A DNA stretch of 40,497 bases from Thermoplasmatales archaeon SW_10_69_26 (lineage in GTDB: Archaea; Thermoplasmatota; SW-10-69-26), in contig PXUB01000025.1 in assembly GCA_003009755.1 (NCBI GenBank), positions 104,244 through 144,740 of the forward strand, in the 5' to 3' direction. Position numbers and translations under genes: made by a program. The stretch's first letter is position 1, and each line of letters starts with the position of its first letter. Shown piece by piece: positions 7,543 through 15,725 of this stretch. Below the pieces are notes generated by a model, which ran no database searches, was not told the origin of the DNA, and saw nothing but the letters and a program-made list of their open reading frames with translations.

Positions 7543-8634
7543 GTGCTCGACCCCGTCTCGGCGTTCTCCCACGCGAGCGTTCTCCGGTGGCGGCTCGTCG
7601 CCGGCGCGGCGCTCGTCGCCTTGATCTACGCTGGCTTCCGAGCGCGCGCCGACGTGGCCGAGCGCATGGGGTTCACCGACGCCGACGTGGCCCTCGTCAC
7701 CGTGGGGGCGCTGGCGGCGCCGGTGCTGAGCGTCCCGGTGGCCGTCGTCGACGGGGCCGTGTTCGCCGTCAACCTCGGCGGCGCGCTCGTCCCGTTGATC
7801 ATCGCCTGGCGGTTGCACCAACGTGGCCACCTGCCGCTGGGCCGGACCGCGGTGGGGGCCGTTCCCGTGGCCCTGGCGACGTGGTACGTCGTCGACGTGC
7901 AGCCGGGCGTGGGCGTGGTCGCCGGGTGGCCGGAGTTCATGTTGCCAGCGCTGGTGGCGCTCGTCGTCGGCCTGGTCGCCGGCGGCATCGAGCCCGACCG
8001 GGCCGGTCCGATCGCGCTGGCGGCCGGCTCCTTCGGGGCCCTCGTCGGAGCCGACCTGGTCACCTTGCCCGAGGTGCTGGCGGTGGCGCGGGAGGCACCG
8101 CGGGGGGCCGCGCTCGTGGTCGGCGGGGGTGGCAGCTTCGATCTGGTGTTCCTTGCGGGCGCGCTGGGGCTCGCGTTGAGCCTCGCGTTGACCCTGCTCG
8201 TCACCGAGGCGACCCCGGCCAAGCTGGGCGCTCGCCGCGGCCGAGCCCTGCGGGTCGCCGAGGCCGACCAAGTATTGGCCCAGCTCGATCCCTTGCCGGG
8301 CTGGACGCCGCGCGAGCAGGCCTTGGCTCACTTGGCCCGAGCCAATCTGGCCCTGGCCAGCGACCGACGCGCCCGGGCGGCCCGCGAGGCTCACGAGGCG
8401 ATCGACGTGTTGTTGCGCGCGGGGTCCCCCACGCTGCTGGAGCGAGTGCGCCGAGGGGAGGCCGCGGACGAGATCGTCGCCGAGCTGGAGGGCCTGCAGG
8501 ATCGGGCGCAGGCGTCCGCCGACGAGGTGGGATGGGCGCAGGCGGCCGAGACGGTGGAGGCGGCCAAGCACGTCGCCGGCCGGCTGTGGCATTACGCGCC
8601 GGGGCGCGTGCGTCCGGAGGGGTGGCGAGCGTGA
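7543..8634 (+). CDS. DUF1614-like multi-pass membrane protein with helical C-terminal domain
   Basis: A 363-residue protein with two parts. Residues about 15-235 are membrane-embedded and carry the landmarks of the DUF1614 family: VDGAVFAVNLGGALVPL near residue 70, a glycine-rich GALVGADLVTL segment and GGGGSFDLVFLAG before the last helix. Residues about 240-363 form a soluble, arginine- and alanine-rich helical domain that the usual DUF1614 protein lacks. The molecular function of DUF1614 proteins is unknown. The GTG at 7543 has a TATA-like cttacatc about 29 nt upstream. Its last bases overlap the next gene as GTGA, making it the first of a four-gene coupled operon. Confidence 0.75.
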   Translation: MLDPVSAFSHASVLRWRLVAGAALVALIYAGFRARADVAERMGFTDADVALVTVGALAAPVLSVPVAVVDGAVFAVNLGGALVPLIIAWRLHQRGHLPLGRTAVGAVPVALATWYVVDVQPGVGVVAGWPEFMLPALVALVVGLVAGGIEPDRAGPIALAAGSFGALVGADLVTLPEVLAVAREAPRGAALVVGGGGSFDLVFLAGALGLALSLALTLLVTEATPAKLGARRGRALRVAEADQVLAQLDPLPGWTPREQALAHLARANLALASDRRARAAREAHEAIDVLLRAGSPTLLERVRRGEAADEIVAELEGLQDRAQASADEVGWAQAAETVEAAKHVAGRLWHYAPGRVRPEGWRA

Positions 8635-9104
8635 GGGCCCAAGCGATGGAGGGGCCGGCGGCGGCGCCGTTGCTCGACCGGGCGGCGGCCTACCTGGTGG
8701 ACAGCCTCGTGACGGCGCTCGTGTGGGGGCTGCTCGTCGTCGCGTTCACCGGGGATCCGCTGGCGCCGGCGACGTGGGATCCGACGCGGGCCCAGGTGCT
8801 CTCGATGCTGTTCCTCGTCATCCCGTTCGGCTACTTCCTCGCCTTCGAGGGCGCGTGGGCCACCACGCCCGGCAAGCGCCTGTTCGGGCTGCAGGTCACC
8901 GACGGGCAGGGGCGACGAGCCGGCGGCTACGAGGCCACGGTCCGCAACGTGTTGCGCTTGGCCTGGTCGCTGGGCCCGCTGGGGCCCCTCTTCCTGACGT
9001 TGGACGCGGCGTTGGTCCAGTGGACCGAGCGCGACGTGCGGATCGGCGATCACGCGGCCGGCACGCGCGTGCGCCGGAGCCTCGAGCCCGTCATCCCGCT
9101 GTGA
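8631..9104 (+). CDS. RDD-family membrane protein
   Basis: A 157-residue protein with the RDD layout: an N-terminal Arg/Asp helix (LLDRAAAYLVDSLV), a second hydrophobic segment (residues about 60-80), the TTPGKRLFGLQV block near residue 82, and a final RIGDHAAGTRV. RDD proteins are small polytopic membrane proteins, some linked to Na+ or Li+ transport, but most have no assigned role. The GTG start is chosen because it forms a GTGA overlap with the upstream stop, which recurs through this operon; an ATG at 8646 is the alternative. Confidence 0.88.
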   Translation: MRAQAMEGPAAAPLLDRAAAYLVDSLVTALVWGLLVVAFTGDPLAPATWDPTRAQVLSMLFLVIPFGYFLAFEGAWATTPGKRLFGLQVTDGQGRRAGGYEATVRNVLRLAWSLGPLGPLFLTLDAALVQWTERDVRIGDHAAGTRVRRSLEPVIPL

Positions 9105-9454
9105 GCCACCCAACGTTTTCCAAGACGGGCACGCTGGCCCCGCGCGTGGAGACGATCGCGGTCTACCCGGTGCACGCCGCTCCCGACGCCCCGCTGGCCC
9201 GCCTCCGTGAACGGCTCGAGGCGGCCGGGTTCTCGGTCGACGACGCCGAGGAGCTGGATCTGGCCGCCCGGCGCGGCGTCGACCGCCTGTTCGTGGGACT
9301 GGGCGCCCACGAGGACGGCCTGGCGGCGCGCTGGAAGACCAAGAGCCTCGTGCCCGGCCGAGCCCGCAGCACCCACCAGATCGCCGAACAGGTGTTGACC
9401 GAGGTGTTGGGCTCGCCCGAGCGGCGGTTCACGCCCGGGGAGGGCTCCCCGTGA
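9101..9454 (+). CDS. Small soluble protein of unknown function in membrane operon
   Basis: A 117-residue protein with no recognised family and no membrane segment. Its core (from about residue 16) starts ETIAVYPVH and alternates strands and helices, with a conserved-looking FVGLGAHEDGLAARWK in the middle and a C-terminal helix. It looks like a small alpha/beta domain. The GTG at 9101 overlaps the RDD gene stop as GTGA; a second GTG at 9146 lies 25-30 nt after acgttttcc (9113-9121) and could be an alternative start from an internal promoter. Context ties it to the DUF1614/RDD/zinc-ribbon membrane set. Confidence 0.72.
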   Translation: MSHPTFSKTGTLAPRVETIAVYPVHAAPDAPLARLRERLEAAGFSVDDAEELDLAARRGVDRLFVGLGAHEDGLAARWKTKSLVPGRARSTHQIAEQVLTEVLGSPERRFTPGEGSP

Positions 9455-10350
9455 CGCGGGAACCGTGTCCCCGTTGCGGCAGCCAGCGGCCGACGTTGGG
9501 TCCCTGCCCGGAGTGCGAGTACGAAGACCCCCATCCAGGCGTGCTGGGCTCCTACCGGCAGGCCTGGGGCGAGATCGTGGACCGGCCGAGCCTGCTCGTG
9601 CCGTTCGTGTTGCCGACGATCCTGTTGTTCGCGCTGCGGGGCCTGCTGTACCTGGGCGGGCATCTGTCGGCCGCCGGGCGCGTCGTGGAGGGGTTGGCTG
9701 GGGTGCTCGTGCTCTACCTGGGCATGAGCTGGTACTTCGCCGCGATCGGCAGCGTCACCGACCGGGACAGCGCCGGCCCCGAGGTGCCCGGTGGCCCGGT
9801 CTACGTGGCCTCGGCGGTCGGGGCGGCGATCGTGGCGGCGCCGCTGGCCGGCTTCGTCTTGCTCGTCGGTCTGCAGGGACCCCAGAGCCTGGGGGCGATC
9901 GGGCTGCTGGCCTCCGTGTTGTTGCTGTTGGTGTCGCTGGTCGCTGCCGGTCGCAGCCTGGGGCTGCCCGTCGAGGCGGCCCTGTCGGGCACCTGGTCGA
10001 CCCAGACGCTGGTCCGCGCCAACGATCGAGGCCGCGAGAACGGGGGCCTGGGCCTGGTGTTCCTGGCGTTCTTGCTGTTGATCCCGTTGCTCGTCCTGCC
10101 GCCGGTCACCCAACGCGTGATCCCGGCGCCCTGGGCCGGTTACACCCAGCTTGTGGTCAGCTTCCTCGGCTTGACGTTCGTCGGGGCCTTGTCCGGGTCG
10201 GCGGCCGCGATCGCGCTCTGGGAGGGTCGAGCTGGGGTCGAGGAGACGTTCACGTGCCCGCTGTGCGGCGAGGGGGCCCGCGCCCAAGCCGGCAGAGCCA
10301 GCTGCGAGTGCGGGCTCGAGGGGCCCTATTACGCCGGTGAGCGGGCCTAG
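9451..10350 (+). CDS. Membrane protein with zinc ribbons at both ends
   Basis: A 299-residue protein. Residues 6-23 form a rubredoxin-like zinc knuckle (CPRCG...CPEC), residues about 45-265 contain around six membrane helices, and the C-terminus (about 271-290) has a second cysteine cluster (CPLCG...CECG). The fold resembles Yip1-like or DUF4013-like membrane proteins with added ribbons, but I cannot assign it to a family. Both ribbons would be on the cytoplasmic side if the number of helices is even. The GTG start overlaps the upstream stop (GTGA), making it the last gene of the operon. Its stop overlaps the end of convergent scpB by 4 nt. Confidence 0.75.
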   Translation: MTREPCPRCGSQRPTLGPCPECEYEDPHPGVLGSYRQAWGEIVDRPSLLVPFVLPTILLFALRGLLYLGGHLSAAGRVVEGLAGVLVLYLGMSWYFAAIGSVTDRDSAGPEVPGGPVYVASAVGAAIVAAPLAGFVLLVGLQGPQSLGAIGLLASVLLLLVSLVAAGRSLGLPVEAALSGTWSTQTLVRANDRGRENGGLGLVFLAFLLLIPLLVLPPVTQRVIPAPWAGYTQLVVSFLGLTFVGALSGSAAAIALWEGRAGVEETFTCPLCGEGARAQAGRASCECGLEGPYYAGERA

Positions 10351-10970
10351 TCCGGATCCGTCCCGGGCACCGGCGGCGCATCGCGCGCGTCGCCGTCCTG
10401 GGTCTGGGGGGCGCCCCCGTCGGAGAGGAGGCCGACCTTCTCGGCGAGGTAGTTGCGGATGCGTTCGTTCTCGTCGGAGGGGATCCCGAAGTACTCGGGG
10501 AAGGCCGAGGTCGTCGTGAGCTCGTAGGTGATGCCCTCCCGCTCCTTGCTGACCAGGCCGAGGTCGACGAGCGTGCCGACGTGGCTGTAGACCTTGGAGC
10601 CGACCATGTCCTGCAGGTCGGATTGCAACAGCGGCTGGTGGTAGGCGATGAGGGCCAGCGTCCGGAGGACGTGGAAGGGGATCTCGGGCGGCACCAGGTC
10701 GCGGGACTCGTCGGCGAAGGCCTCCCGGAGCACCATGCCCCACTTGTTGCCCGATCGGACGACGTGGAAGCTGGTGCGCATCTCGGCGTAGCGAGCCTCG
10801 ATCTCTTCCAGGCACTCCTCGACGGTCTCTTCGCCGACCTGCGTCTTGGAGACGATCTCGTCCACGCTGAGGGGTTCGCCGGCGCTGAAGAGCGCGGCTT
10901 CGATCAGCAGGTCGGGGGCCTGGCGGGGATCGTCGGGGACGTCAGTTCGTTGCTTCAGCTTCGAGCTCAT
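10347..10970 (-). CDS. scpB: Segregation and condensation protein ScpB
   Basis: A 207-residue kleisin-interacting subunit (kite protein) of the SMC-ScpAB condensin-like complex, which organises and segregates the chromosome. It consists of two winged-helix domains: the first at residues about 18-95 (LLIEAALFSAGEPLSVDEI) and the second at about 100-170, with the typical LALIAYHQPLLQSDL and a GLVSKEREG wing. The C-terminal 30 residues are acidic and disordered. Its start lies 29 nt inside the end of scpA, so the two are translated from one message. Confidence 0.93.
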   Translation of the reverse strand: MSSKLKQRTDVPDDPRQAPDLLIEAALFSAGEPLSVDEIVSKTQVGEETVEECLEEIEARYAEMRTSFHVVRSGNKWGMVLREAFADESRDLVPPEIPFHVLRTLALIAYHQPLLQSDLQDMVGSKVYSHVGTLVDLGLVSKEREGITYELTTTSAFPEYFGIPSDENERIRNYLAEKVGLLSDGGAPQTQDGDARDAPPVPGTDPD

Positions 10971-12030
10971 CGTCGTCCACCTCCTCGGGGTCGGCGGGGT
11001 CTTGGTCGGGGACCTCGGCGATAGCGGCGTCCGGGTCGAGCAGGCGTTCGCGCGGCTCGAGGTAGATCGGGCCCTCCGGGAACGATTCCTGGCGGACGTC
11101 GACCATCTCGGCCTTCGAGAGGAACAGCGTCGAGACGAACACGGTGAGGTAGTCCTCGCGGGTGCCGTCGAAGACCTCGCGGATGTCGACCTCCTCCTCG
11201 TAGCCCTTGAGCCGTTCGCGGACGTGGTCGATCTCGGCCTCGAGGTCCTCCTCGTGGACCTCCTCCTCGACGGTCTCCTCCTCGTCGTCGGCCTGGGCTT
11301 GTGCCTCCTCGCGGGCCTTGCGGCGTTCTTCCTGCAGGCGTTTGCGCCGTTCGGCGCTGCGGCGGCCCTCCTCGAGGGCTTCGACGAGTTCGAACAGCGT
11401 CACCTTCCGGTCGCCTTGACGGAACACGGACTCGCTGAGCGGGGGGTCGTTGTCCTCGTCGAGAACCTCTTCAGTGTAGGTCTCGTCGGGGTCGGGCTCG
11501 GCGCCCCAGTCCTCGGGCATCTCGTCCCAGCCCACGTCCCAGGGCTCTTCCTCGGGTTCCTCGGGTTCCTCGTCCTCCTGGGCTCGGTCGAGCAGGCCTT
11601 CGGTCTGTTGGAGGAGCACGTTCCAGGCCATCGCCAACAGGCGACCGCCCGTGATGAGGTCGACCTCGGGGGTATCCTTGATGCGGTCGAGGTACAGCGT
11701 GGAGAAGTTGGCCAGGTCGATCGACCAGGGGTCCATGTGCTGGTCGGCGGCCAGGTGGAAGGTGAGGGCGATCGCGCGGTCGAAGGGGTTGCGGAAGCTG
11801 GCGACGTCCGAGCGCGCCATCTCGACGTACTCGGCCAACCGGTCGGGGTCGTGGTCGGCCAGCGAGCGGTGAAGCAACAGGTGTTCGACGACGTGGTTGG
11901 GCTCCTCGTCGTCGTCGAAGGAGGCTCCGTCGGCGGCCGGGCCGTGGTGGGCCCGCGAGACCTCGTCGATGCCCTGTTGGGCGGCGTCGACGAGCAGCGT
12001 CTGCAGTGTGCCGGAGCTGTCGGTGCCCAC
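10942..12030 (-). CDS. scpA: Kleisin subunit ScpA with long acidic insert
   Basis: This 362-residue kleisin bridges the two SMC heads and binds ScpB. The N-terminal helical domain that contacts the SMC neck lies at about residues 75-145 (FDRAIALTFHLA, DLANFSTLYLDRI) and the C-terminal winged helix that contacts the SMC cap at about 265-335 (TVFVSTLFLSKAEMV). At over 100 residues longer than most ScpA proteins, it carries an acidic linker and coiled-coil stretch (about 150-260) rich in E, D and R, plus an acidic tail. The GTG start is separated by a single base from the smc stop. It sits between smc and scpB. Confidence 0.9.
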   Translation of the reverse strand: MGTDSSGTLQTLLVDAAQQGIDEVSRAHHGPAADGASFDDDEEPNHVVEHLLLHRSLADHDPDRLAEYVEMARSDVASFRNPFDRAIALTFHLAADQHMDPWSIDLANFSTLYLDRIKDTPEVDLITGGRLLAMAWNVLLQQTEGLLDRAQEDEEPEEPEEEPWDVGWDEMPEDWGAEPDPDETYTEEVLDEDNDPPLSESVFRQGDRKVTLFELVEALEEGRRSAERRKRLQEERRKAREEAQAQADDEEETVEEEVHEEDLEAEIDHVRERLKGYEEEVDIREVFDGTREDYLTVFVSTLFLSKAEMVDVRQESFPEGPIYLEPRERLLDPDAAIAEVPDQDPADPEEVDDDELEAEATN

Positions 12031-12031
12031 G

Positions 12032-15000
12032 TCAGGCCTCCTTGAGTTCCTCGTGGGCGATCTCGTCGACGTCGACCGTGCCCAGCACCTGCGTGATGCC
12101 GTCCCGCATCGTGACGCCGTAGACGTGGTCGGCCAGCTTGAGCGTCACCTTGCGGAGCGAGACCATGATGAACTGGGCCCGGTCGGCCTGTTCGCGGACC
12201 ATGTTGGCCACGAGCTCGCTGTTGACACCGTCGAGGAACATGTCCACCTCGTCGAGGACGTAGAAGGGCGAGGGAGCGTACTGCTGGATCGCGAAGATGA
12301 AGGACAGGGCGGTGAGCGACTTCTCGCCGCCGGAGAGCGCCTCGAGCCGGTGGACGCTCTTCCCGCGGGGTTGGCTTTCGAGGATGAGACCGCCCTCGAA
12401 GGGGTCGACCTCGTTCTCGAGCTTGAGGCGGGCGCTGCCGCCGCCGGACAGCTTCTCGAAGATCGCCTGGAAGTTCTCGTTGACCTCGTCGAAGACCTTC
12501 ATCAGGGCCTGCTTCTTGCGCCCCAGCAACTCGTCGGCGAGCTCGATCAGGCTCTCGCGCTCCTTCTCGAGGCGTTCGAGCTCGGCTTCGAGCTCGTCGC
12601 GGCGCTGCTCTTGCTCCTCGTACTCCTCGAGAGCCCGCATGTTGACCGGTTCCAGGTCCTCCATGCGTGATTCGATGTGGCGGGCCTGCTCCTTGATCGC
12701 CTCCCGCGTGGCGTTCACCGTCTCCGGCGGCTCGGCCTCCATCGCCTCCAGCTCCTCGCGGGCCTCCTCGAGGTTGGATTCGATGACGGGGATCCGGCCT
12801 CGGAACTGAACGATGAGGTCGCTGTTGGCGTCGATGTTGTCCTGCACGCGGTCGCGCTCGTTCTCGAGCTGGTACTTGCGTTCCACCAGCTCGTCGCGCT
12901 CCTCGCGCAGCTCCTCCATCTGCTCGTCGTGCTTGCCGACGAGCTCCTCGAGGACGTCGATCTCCTCTTGAAGGTTCTCCTGCTTCTCCTCGTAACCGGT
13001 GATCTCGGCCTTGTGCTCGTCGCGTTCGGCCTTGAGCTCCTCGACGCGTTGGGCGAGCTCGTCGCGGCGCTCGCGCGCCATGCGCTGTTTCTCCTCGAGC
13101 GCCTCGCGGCGGGCCTCGAGGTCGCGGATCGAGTCCTTGACGTCGTCGAGCTCCTCGCGGAGGTCCTCGAGCTTGTCAGCAAGCTTCTCCTGGGTGGTCT
13201 CCATGAACTGCTGGCCCTTCTCCTCGCGCTTCTCGTCGAGGGCTTGCATACGCTCGTGGGTGGCCTCGGACTGCTCGCGGGCTTGCTCGAGCTCGCCGCG
13301 TGCTTCCTCGAGGTCCTCCTCGAGCTCCTCGCGCTTGGCTTCGAGGCTCTCGATCCGCTCGTTGGCCTCCTCGGCCTTGCGTTGTGCTTCCTCGCGCTCG
13401 GATTCCTGCTTGACGATGTCCCGCTCGACCTCGCGGAGCTGTTCGCGGATCTGGCGGACCTCGTCCTCGACCTGCTCGAGCTGGCTCTCGAGGGTCTCCT
13501 TCTGGGTGACCTTGTTGCGGAGCTCGTCGCCCAGCTCCTCGAGGTTGTCCTTGCGTTGAACGTTGAACCCGGAACCGGTGCGTTTCTTCGTCGAGCCGCC
13601 GGTCATCGCGCCGCCGGCGTCGATCTTCTCGCCTTCCTTGGTAACCATGCGGACGCCACCCATCAGGCGACGGGCAGCGTCGATGTCCTCGACGATGAGC
13701 GTGGAGCGGAAGACGTAGCTGAACGCAGCCTTGTACTTCTCGTCGAAGTCCAGCAGGTCGATGGCGAACCCGATCGCCTCGTCGTCGCGGGAGGCCATCA
13801 GGGCCTGGCCCTGGGGACGGCGGTAACTGAGCTTGTTGAGCGGTAGGAACTTGACGCGGCCGAAGTCGTTGCGTTTGAGGTAGTCGATGGCCTCGCTGGC
13901 CACCTCGTCGTCGTCGACGACGACGGCCTGCATGGCGCCGCCGGCGGCGATCTCGAGCGCGGTCTCGAGCTCGTTCTCCGGTTCGCCGAGCTCGGCGATC
14001 GTGCCGCACACGCCGTCCAGCTGACCGGTGTCGCGGGCTTCGAGCACGGCTTCGACGGCGCGCGAGAACCCGCCCACTCGGCCCTGGGCGTCGAACTCTG
14101 CTTTGAGCTGGTTGTACTTGTTCCGCAGCTCGCGGATCTCGGGGTCCAGCTCGTCGATGTCCTCTTGGAGCGCGGCTTGGCGCTTCTGTTTCTCGAAGAG
14201 GTCGTCGTTGAGCTCTTCCTTCCTATCCTCGAGCTTCTCGTGCTCCTTCTTCGCCTCGCGGGCGGCGTACGTGAGGTCCTTGGCCTCGTACTCGGCGGTC
14301 TCGACCTTCTCCGCGGCGTCGGAGAGCTCGGCTTCGAGGCGGGTGACCGTCTCCTCGAGGCTTTCGACCTCCATGCGGGCCTCGTGGTGGTCGGCCTGCA
14401 CGTCCTCGTACTCCTGCTTGAGCTTGGCGAGCTCGCGCTGGAGCTCGTGGGAGCGGTCGGAGCCTTCGCTGATGCGGTCCTTGGTCTGCTCGAGCTCGGT
14501 CTGGAGCTCGTCGGCTTCCTCCCGCCAGCGTTCGAGGGCCTCGTCCACGTCCTCGCGCTCGTCGAGCACCTCGTCGAGAGCTTCCTGGGCTCGGCTGTGG
14601 TCGGCTTCGGCCTCCTGGAGCTCGATCTTGACCTCCTGGAGCTCGTTGCGGAAGTGGTTGGCCATCTGGCGGGCGGTCGCCATCTCCTCGCGGAGATCCT
14701 GGAGCTTCTCCTGGCGGCGTTGGGCTTCCTCGCCGCCGAGGTCGGCCATCTCCTCGTCGAGCTCTTCGAGCTCGGTCTCGACCTCCTCGAGCTCCTCTTG
14801 GATGTCTTGCTTCTCGGCCTCGAGCTCCTGGCCTTCCTCCTCGTAGGACTCGATGGATTCGCGGACGTTGGCGAGCTCTTGATTGAGGCCTTCGATCCGT
14901 TTCTTGGCGAGCTTGGCCTGCACCTGTTTCATCTCGTCCTGCAGGTCGCGGTACTCCTGGGCTCGCTCCTTCTCGTCGGCGAGCTGCTTGAGCTTGCTTT

Positions 15001-15610
15001 GGACCTCGTGGAGGATGAGCCGCGTGCGCTCGAGGTTGTCCTCGACCTCCTCGCGCTGGCTTTCGGCGTCTTCCAGCTCCTCGTCGAAGCGCGTGATGCC
15101 AGCGATCTCGTCCAGGATGCCTCGACGCTCGGTCGTCGACATCGACACGATCCGGGTCACGTCGCCCTGCTGGACGATGTTGTACCCGTCGGCGCTGATG
15201 CGTGCGTGGGAGAGCAGGTCCTGGAACTCGGTGAGGCTGGAGGTGTCGCCGTTGACGTAGTAGTAGGAGTTGACGCGCTCGGGGTCGGAGGGGCTGCGCT
15301 TGATCCGGCGGGTGAGCACGATCTCGTCCTCGTCGACGGGGATCGTGCGGTCCTCGTTGGCGAGCACGAGGGAAACCTTGCACTCGTCGCGGGGTTCGCC
15401 GTTGGCGCCGCCGTTGTGGATGAGGTCGGCCAGGCGGCCGGCGCGGATCTGCTTGCTCGACGTGGTGCCGAGCACGAACAAGATCGCGTCTGAGATGTTC
15501 GATTTCCCGGAGCCGTTGGGGCCCGTGATCCCGGTGAAGCCCGGTTCGAAGGGCACCTCTTGCTGCCGGAACGATTTGAAGTTCTTCATCTCGACGCGTT
15601 TGAGGTACAT
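12032..15610 (-). CDS. smc: Chromosome segregation ATPase SMC
   Basis: This 1192-residue ATPase folds back at its hinge and works as a dimer with ScpA and ScpB to compact and segregate DNA. Visible parts in order: Walker A GPNGSGKSN at residues 30-38, coiled coil to about 505, hinge about 505-675 (GGVRMVTKEGEKIDAGGAMTG at its end), returning coiled coil, ABC signature LSGGEKSL near residue 1090 and Walker B with FYVLDEVDMFLD about 25 residues later. The ATG at 15610 is used because the family start MYLKRVEMKNFKSF begins there; upstream residues match nothing. It is the first gene of the smc-scpA-scpB operon. Confidence 0.97.
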   Translation of the reverse strand: MYLKRVEMKNFKSFRQQEVPFEPGFTGITGPNGSGKSNISDAILFVLGTTSSKQIRAGRLADLIHNGGANGEPRDECKVSLVLANEDRTIPVDEDEIVLTRRIKRSPSDPERVNSYYYVNGDTSSLTEFQDLLSHARISADGYNIVQQGDVTRIVSMSTTERRGILDEIAGITRFDEELEDAESQREEVEDNLERTRLILHEVQSKLKQLADEKERAQEYRDLQDEMKQVQAKLAKKRIEGLNQELANVRESIESYEEEGQELEAEKQDIQEELEEVETELEELDEEMADLGGEEAQRRQEKLQDLREEMATARQMANHFRNELQEVKIELQEAEADHSRAQEALDEVLDEREDVDEALERWREEADELQTELEQTKDRISEGSDRSHELQRELAKLKQEYEDVQADHHEARMEVESLEETVTRLEAELSDAAEKVETAEYEAKDLTYAAREAKKEHEKLEDRKEELNDDLFEKQKRQAALQEDIDELDPEIRELRNKYNQLKAEFDAQGRVGGFSRAVEAVLEARDTGQLDGVCGTIAELGEPENELETALEIAAGGAMQAVVVDDDEVASEAIDYLKRNDFGRVKFLPLNKLSYRRPQGQALMASRDDEAIGFAIDLLDFDEKYKAAFSYVFRSTLIVEDIDAARRLMGGVRMVTKEGEKIDAGGAMTGGSTKKRTGSGFNVQRKDNLEELGDELRNKVTQKETLESQLEQVEDEVRQIREQLREVERDIVKQESEREEAQRKAEEANERIESLEAKREELEEDLEEARGELEQAREQSEATHERMQALDEKREEKGQQFMETTQEKLADKLEDLREELDDVKDSIRDLEARREALEEKQRMARERRDELAQRVEELKAERDEHKAEITGYEEKQENLQEEIDVLEELVGKHDEQMEELREERDELVERKYQLENERDRVQDNIDANSDLIVQFRGRIPVIESNLEEAREELEAMEAEPPETVNATREAIKEQARHIESRMEDLEPVNMRALEEYEEQEQRRDELEAELERLEKERESLIELADELLGRKKQALMKVFDEVNENFQAIFEKLSGGGSARLKLENEVDPFEGGLILESQPRGKSVHRLEALSGGEKSLTALSFIFAIQQYAPSPFYVLDEVDMFLDGVNSELVANMVREQADRAQFIMVSLRKVTLKLADHVYGVTMRDGITQVLGTVDVDEIAHEELKEA

Positions 15611-15725
15611 CGCGTCACTCCGCGGTGGCGTCAGGCTGAGGCCACCGGGGCCAGCATACACTGGGGTCCCCGACTGGCTGCCTGCATCCCATCCGCTGTC
15701 CCAATGACCAGCGTACGTATTTAAG
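15611..15725 (-). promoter_or_regulatory. smc operon promoter and leader with hairpin
   Basis: The minus-strand cttaaata at 15718-15725 is a good TATA box. Transcription would start near 15693, leaving a leader of about 83 nt, which contrasts with the leaderless genes around. The leader contains a perfect 7-bp stem (cggtggc at 15623-15629 with gccaccg at 15641-15647, 11-nt loop) ending about 12 nt before the ATG, which could mask the start region. The rest of the gap up to 15897 shows nothing clear. Confidence 0.5.

Follow-up and report, generated by a model that had tools for sequence, protein, structure and literature searches.

A probable DUF1614-HEPN-RDD membrane protein split into two chains in one class of Thermoplasmatota, with a candidate KA1-like subunit and a possible role in membrane lipids

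Four adjacent genes were analysed in the window, which is the whole stretch of 40,497 nucleotides from Thermoplasmatales archaeon SW_10_69_26 (contig PXUB01000025.1; archaeal, with a G+C content of 68%). In our reading they encode a split DUF1614-HEPN-RDD membrane protein with a KA1-like peripheral subunit and a role connected with membrane lipids, and we would give this whole reading an even chance (roughly 0.5). Its firmest part concerns genes 1 and 2, which are very probably the split form of one membrane protein that is fused in related archaea.

All four frames were observed to be open (Table 1), and successive stop and start codons overlap by GTGA at the three junctions, as the earlier note had described. 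That note took the repeated overlap as the sign of an equimolar four-part complex. We dropped this line of evidence because such 4-nt overlaps are common in this genome and hence weigh nothing for a complex. In the window and loci L029 and L041 of the same genome, an NTGA overlap is possible in 17 of 46 close codirectional pairs and a GTGA overlap in nine, the three junctions of the window among them; these are rough figures because they come from a home-made gene caller. It is uncertain where genes 2 and 3 start. The gene caller favours the internal GTG as the start of gene 3 and the homologues begin at the same point, so the second junction may be a 41-nt gap with no overlap. The GTG at 9451 would be a plausible start for gene 4, since look-alikes in G003 and G006 likewise begin just ahead of the first ribbon. 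Converging with gene 4 on the minus strand is a row of genes that we take to be ScpB-, ScpA- and SMC-like (10347-15661), and what is presumably a ribosomal-protein and SecY cluster lies downstream of the four genes. A protein of about 520 aa, repetitive and rich in Cys and NGG, is encoded at 895-2466.

Table 1. Features of the four-gene locus, in positions of the window.
Feature	Position	Strand	Description
Gene 1	7543-8634	+	363 aa; DUF1614 membrane domain (about residues 1-220) and C-terminal HEPN-like soluble domain (predicted)
HEPN-like helical domain of gene 1	8287-8589	+	Corresponds to the linker of fused DUF1614-RDD proteins
Gene 2	8631-9104	+	157 aa; RDD membrane protein; shares GTGA with gene 1 at 8631-8634
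Gene 3	9101-9454	+	117 aa; small soluble alpha/beta protein, predicted KA1-like, class-specific; possible true start GTG 9146
Gene 4	9451-10350	+	299 aa; membrane protein bearing zinc-ribbon-like CxxC pairs at both termini; uncertain member of the unit

Gene 1 matched DUF1614 (PF07758) over residues 69-209 with an E-value of 5.9e-18 (65.8 bits against a Pfam cut-off of 23.9), and gene 2 matched RDD (PF06271) with an E-value of 6.2e-19 (69.1 bits, cut-off 24.1). Across the 389 genomes of the phylum that were searched, DUF1614 was detected in 112 and RDD in 241, and in at least 55 of them an RDD match lies within 3 kb downstream of DUF1614 on the same strand. Single-frame DUF1614-RDD fusions were found in at least 50 of the 389 genomes and in 11 families, and it is on account of these fusions that genes 1 and 2 are read as one unit, which bears out the pairing made in the earlier note. 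The number is a lower bound taken from 150 listed DUF1614 matches and 58 RDD matches that share a genome with one of them; G353 and G076:C54, which look fused by reading, are outside it. As an example, L052, L053, L054, L057 and L058 are single open reading frames with DUF1614 followed by RDD (from 12 loci in a scan of named genomes, with the families confirmed on the aligned set), and the DUF1614-RDD frames of L055, L056 and L059 are truncated by contig ends. Separate frames form five pairs among the matches listed, where four belong to the window's class and the fifth, in G215, is interrupted by an assembly gap. As far as seen among these matches, the split form is confined to the window's class. 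In the same set, 95 DUF1614 matches had no matched RDD, 87 of them being short frames of 79-284 aa. The window's genome also has a second, short DUF1614 gene (L029, 8146-8793) that has neither the HEPN tail nor an RDD neighbour.

All seven genomes of the class carry DUF1614, and the family was also detected in Sulfolobus acidocaldarius and Methanosarcina acetivorans, which served as controls. In G003 (L032), G005 (L033) and G006 (L030), DUF1614 with its soluble tail is followed by RDD at a 4-nt overlap, while the overlap in G002 (L031) is 17 nt as called; a 4-nt overlap was thus observed in four of the five unfused class loci, and it is the only one of the three overlaps that recurs. G004 (L034) has both domains in one frame of 515 residues. 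The contig of G001 (L038) stops inside DUF1614, and an FtsJ-like gene adjoins DUF1614 there as it does in the window. In both f3 genomes the RDD gene is followed by what we take to be a relative of translation-factor-like GTPases (L030 8162-9115 and L032 1108-2064). In a tree of 44 DUF1614 domains, from which G215 was left out, the linked genes fell to one side of a weakly supported branch (69/80), and the window's class formed one clade (89/99). One change was counted on this tree, with L090 (RDD-like sequence) relabelled and L088 (contig end) unlabelled. The fused G004 is nested among split relatives, and for this reason its fusion is possibly a refusion or an assembly frameshift.

The hydropathy profile of gene 1 has six hydrophobic segments followed by a charged tail of about 140 aa. 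This tail, which the earlier note had recognised as an extra soluble helical domain, corresponds to the linker of the DUF1614-RDD fusions. Profile-profile comparison of the class linkers with the fused linkers gave a probability of 79 and an E-value of 1.6e-5 (reversed controls below 0.2), and single-sequence HMM tests of the same pairing were mixed. The fused protein of L058 was modelled with a pLDDT of 80.1 and a pTM of 0.78 from 15 rows that include window genes 1 and 2. HEPN structures take the first six places among the structural matches of its linker (residues 307-413), with Z-scores from 14.9 for 2hsb (rmsd 2.6 over 105) to 11.8, and below these entries come the toxin-antitoxin chain 7bxo and Csm6. 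Foldseek returned the same HEPN chains with poor E-values and probabilities of up to 1.00. The linker domain is therefore predicted to adopt a HEPN fold in the fused relative L058, and the soluble domain of the window would be HEPN-like as well, being tied by profile to the fused linkers and taking its HEPN identity from that one predicted relative. The window linker itself scored 9.9 bits (E 1.1) against PF05168, under the cut-off of 22. Nothing significant was found for the linker or for gene 3 in Pfam, PDB-sequence and defence-library searches, and in one search the best hits were designed helical proteins. No family of the PADLOC anti-phage defence profiles matched any of the four proteins at an E-value of 0.1. 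For the membrane parts of DUF1614 and RDD, the structural matches to a pyrophosphatase (Z 7.2) and to the peroxisomal translocon 7t92 (Z 9.8, rmsd 5.2) were set aside as too weak.

The RNase motif of HEPN proteins is Rx4-6H. By eye, a conserved motif of this type is absent from the linker alignment; the window linker has one Rx5H in helix 2, which is absent from its relatives. Since no conserved RNase motif was seen, the HEPN-like domain is apparently non-catalytic and would be a docking or ligand-binding platform. The DUF1614 and RDD matches are just 67 nt apart in G007 and G039, and about 200-250 nt apart in the other f5 genomes. The HEPN domain thus appears to be reduced or lost in all of these, and the 67-nt spacing suggests that it is not required everywhere and is dispensable in some carriers. 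A HEPN-like domain on membrane segments is known from membrane-associated HEPN proteins, one group of which also ends in a Zn ribbon; in the part of that account available, such groups are described with other domains or with one or two TM helices, whereas the domain here has no conserved RNase motif and sits on the DUF1614 segments (PMC3710099). The term RDD does not occur in the text of PMC3710099.

Neither gene 3 nor gene 4 matches any Pfam or NCBIfam family at an E-value of 1. A six-row profile of the gene 3 family, searched against the 389 genomes, found it in six of the seven class genomes and in none of the 382 others; the seventh is G001, where the locus is broken by the contig end. 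Gene 3 adjoins DUF1614-RDD in all six class genomes with an intact locus. The neighbourhood search therefore upheld the proposed co-occurrence for DUF1614, RDD and the 117-residue protein (6/7 class genomes) and failed to do so for gene 4. The homologues of gene 3 are divergent from DUF1614 in G002-G006 and are codirectional with it in the window only, so that the co-directional order of four genes was observed in the window alone when compared with the five class relatives; this opposite strand argues against an equimolar four-part complex. With a leave-one-out HMM of gene 3 the window protein reached 31.5 bits, and none of 2000 shuffles exceeded 9.4. We lean towards gene 3 being a partner of DUF1614-RDD.

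The G006 homologue of gene 3 (L048, 9581-9904) was modelled with three rows at a pLDDT of 86.9. Its predicted fold runs strand, helix, four strands, helix, which agrees with the earlier description of the third frame as an alpha/beta protein. The best structural matches were the KA1 domains of the kinases SAD (4yom; Z 10.3, rmsd 2.5 over 87), Chk1 (9.9) and MARK (9.8), with METTL16 (10.2), COR domains, BamC and Bet v 1 types close behind; the best Foldseek match was a SAD kinase chain (E 8.7e-4). Gene 3 is thus predicted to be KA1-like, by which we mean likeness of fold and not membership by descent. The homologue shares this predicted fold with the KA1 domains of MARK, SAD and Chk1 at a Z-score of about 10, but gene 3 is a free-standing archaeal protein of about 100 residues with no kinase. 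A [KR]-x-K motif after the last strand is kept in the six-row alignment of the family. Surface Lys and Arg residues of the KA1 domain of PAR-1 bind anionic phospholipid, according to the available portion of that study (PMC7198698), and the conserved motif of gene 3 is compatible with binding of this kind.

Gene 4 was correctly said to carry zinc ribbons at both ends, where hydropathy places six segments between two CxxC ribbons. Double-ribbon membrane proteins also come right after gene 3 in G003 and G006, and a profile of gene-4-type proteins found unlinked look-alikes in G002 and G004. With leave-one-out profiles of the other gene-4-type proteins, the window's gene 4 scored negatively and fell short of most shuffles. 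After these tests the idea of a conserved homologous subunit was dropped for gene 4, which is kept as an architecture only. Its linkage, or that of a protein of like architecture, at just three of six loci and its undetectable homology to the linked gene-4 proteins also count against the equimolar complex, and we regard its place in any complex as doubtful. In G003, another zinc-ribbon membrane protein is encoded between DUF1614 and gene 3 (L032, 4756-5469).

The function of the module is one that we infer, and it leans on a neighbour of the fused form. A tblastn search placed CarS, the CDP-archaeol synthase, immediately after the fusion and in the same orientation in all 19 genomes of families f5 and f29, and five of the proteins were scanned and matched PF01864 with E-values of 1.4e-39 to 5.7e-51. 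CarS is followed in 17 of these 19 loci by a small zf-HIT/B-box-like protein (for example L070 3149-3980 and L073 1372-2221, CarS included), which may be a further partner; in the other two the stretch stops at a contig end close to CarS. CarS was not found nearby in any of the 12 other fused loci examined or the six class loci; genomes of the window's class have it on other contigs. Families f5 and f29 branch as sisters (99/92) in the DUF1614 tree, so the 19 linkages may be one event that is conserved across 19 species. Because CarS follows the fusion throughout f5 and f29, we tentatively propose that the module takes part in the synthesis, sorting or sensing of membrane lipid, in preference to ion transport. 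The transport or envelope-quality role that the earlier note had offered as a guess is not favoured, as CarS, the sole recurrent neighbour, points rather to membrane lipids.

Transport is the main rival to the lipid role. The module would then be a cation/proton antiporter or small-solute transporter with a pore formed by RDD and DUF1614 and with HEPN and gene 3 as sensors of a cytosolic signal, and we rate this as rather unlikely. An RDD protein of Halobacillus andaensis was reported as a Na+(Li+,K+)/H+ antiporter, and in the part of that report available R35 and D42 are dispensable and R124, R129, D154 and D158 are essential (PMC5996927). Residues R17, D24 and D140 of gene 2 are invariant in six class sequences and match R35, D42 and D154 by motif, so the RDD domain and its conserved R, D and D positions are common to both proteins. 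The DUF1614 domain adds two invariant acidic residues near hydrophobic segments (D171 and D200). However, two of the three shared RDD positions are the dispensable ones, and the essential D158 is Gly in gene 2 when placed by spacing from D140. The RDD domain here is also coupled or fused to DUF1614, unlike that of H. andaensis, and any exchange activity is putative. Furthermore, the gene lists of the loci contain no recurring transport neighbour. That the two conserved Asp residues might belong to an aspartyl intramembrane protease is only a thought; no such chain is among the structural matches listed, which excludes nothing.

Membrane remodelling or a surface complex is a less likely explanation. 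DUF1614 (arCOG02159/COG4089) is described as ancestral in archaea, with six TM segments and an unresolved function, and remodelling was suggested for it from bacterial SpoIIP neighbours (PMC5898192), a suggestion that we also count in favour of our main reading. Reading of the gene lists alone revealed neither a SpoIIP-like nor a SpoIIM-like gene next to our loci. The remaining alternative, that membrane-protein genes came together by chance in one transcription unit and only genes 1 and 2 belong together, draws on the lack of detectable homology between gene 4 and the linked proteins and on the change of strand among relatives, but is improbable in view of gene 3 adjoining DUF1614-RDD at every intact class locus.

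We return to the split DUF1614-HEPN-RDD protein with its KA1-like subunit. Genes 1 and 2 would be its two halves, which form a single chain in most carriers among the sampled relatives. The membrane parts of DUF1614 and RDD would most likely be packed against each other in the cytoplasmic membrane, like those of the single chain, and the HEPN-like domain would be attached to the last DUF1614 helix and face the cytosol. Gene 3 would act as a peripheral subunit that most likely binds the cytosolic HEPN face or anionic lipid head groups, with gene 4 as an optional membrane partner. A bolder version, which we hold to be quite improbable in its entirety, makes DUF1614-HEPN-RDD an ancestral archaeal membrane machine working on CDP-archaeol-derived phospholipid, for instance by moving or metering new ether lipid; HEPN would be its cytosolic sensor, the KA1-like subunit of the class would read the lipid surface, and splitting of the chain would have accompanied recruitment of the subunit.

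No described system with this set of genes was found in the literature searched for DUF1614/arCOG02159, as the earlier note had supposed. That note was right that something undescribed is present and that three of the four genes co-occur, for reasons other than the overlaps. The six-segment membrane domain of gene 1 is that of arCOG02159/COG4089/DUF1614 (Saci_0392 type), with a family match over the cut-off, while the available part of the published account names no RDD or HEPN part, and gene 1 has a HEPN-like tail and is coupled to RDD (PMC5898192). The terms RDD and CarS are absent from the text of PMC5898192. As far as searches on DUF1614, COG4089 and arCOG02159 go, the DUF1614-HEPN-RDD architecture is new to the literature. 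An ancient membrane protein, DUF1614, thus gains its first concrete and testable partners. The RDD fusion, the HEPN-like linker, the lineage-specific KA1-like partner and the operon-like CarS arrangement of one branch would together provide named partners and a measurable output, which is lipid composition.
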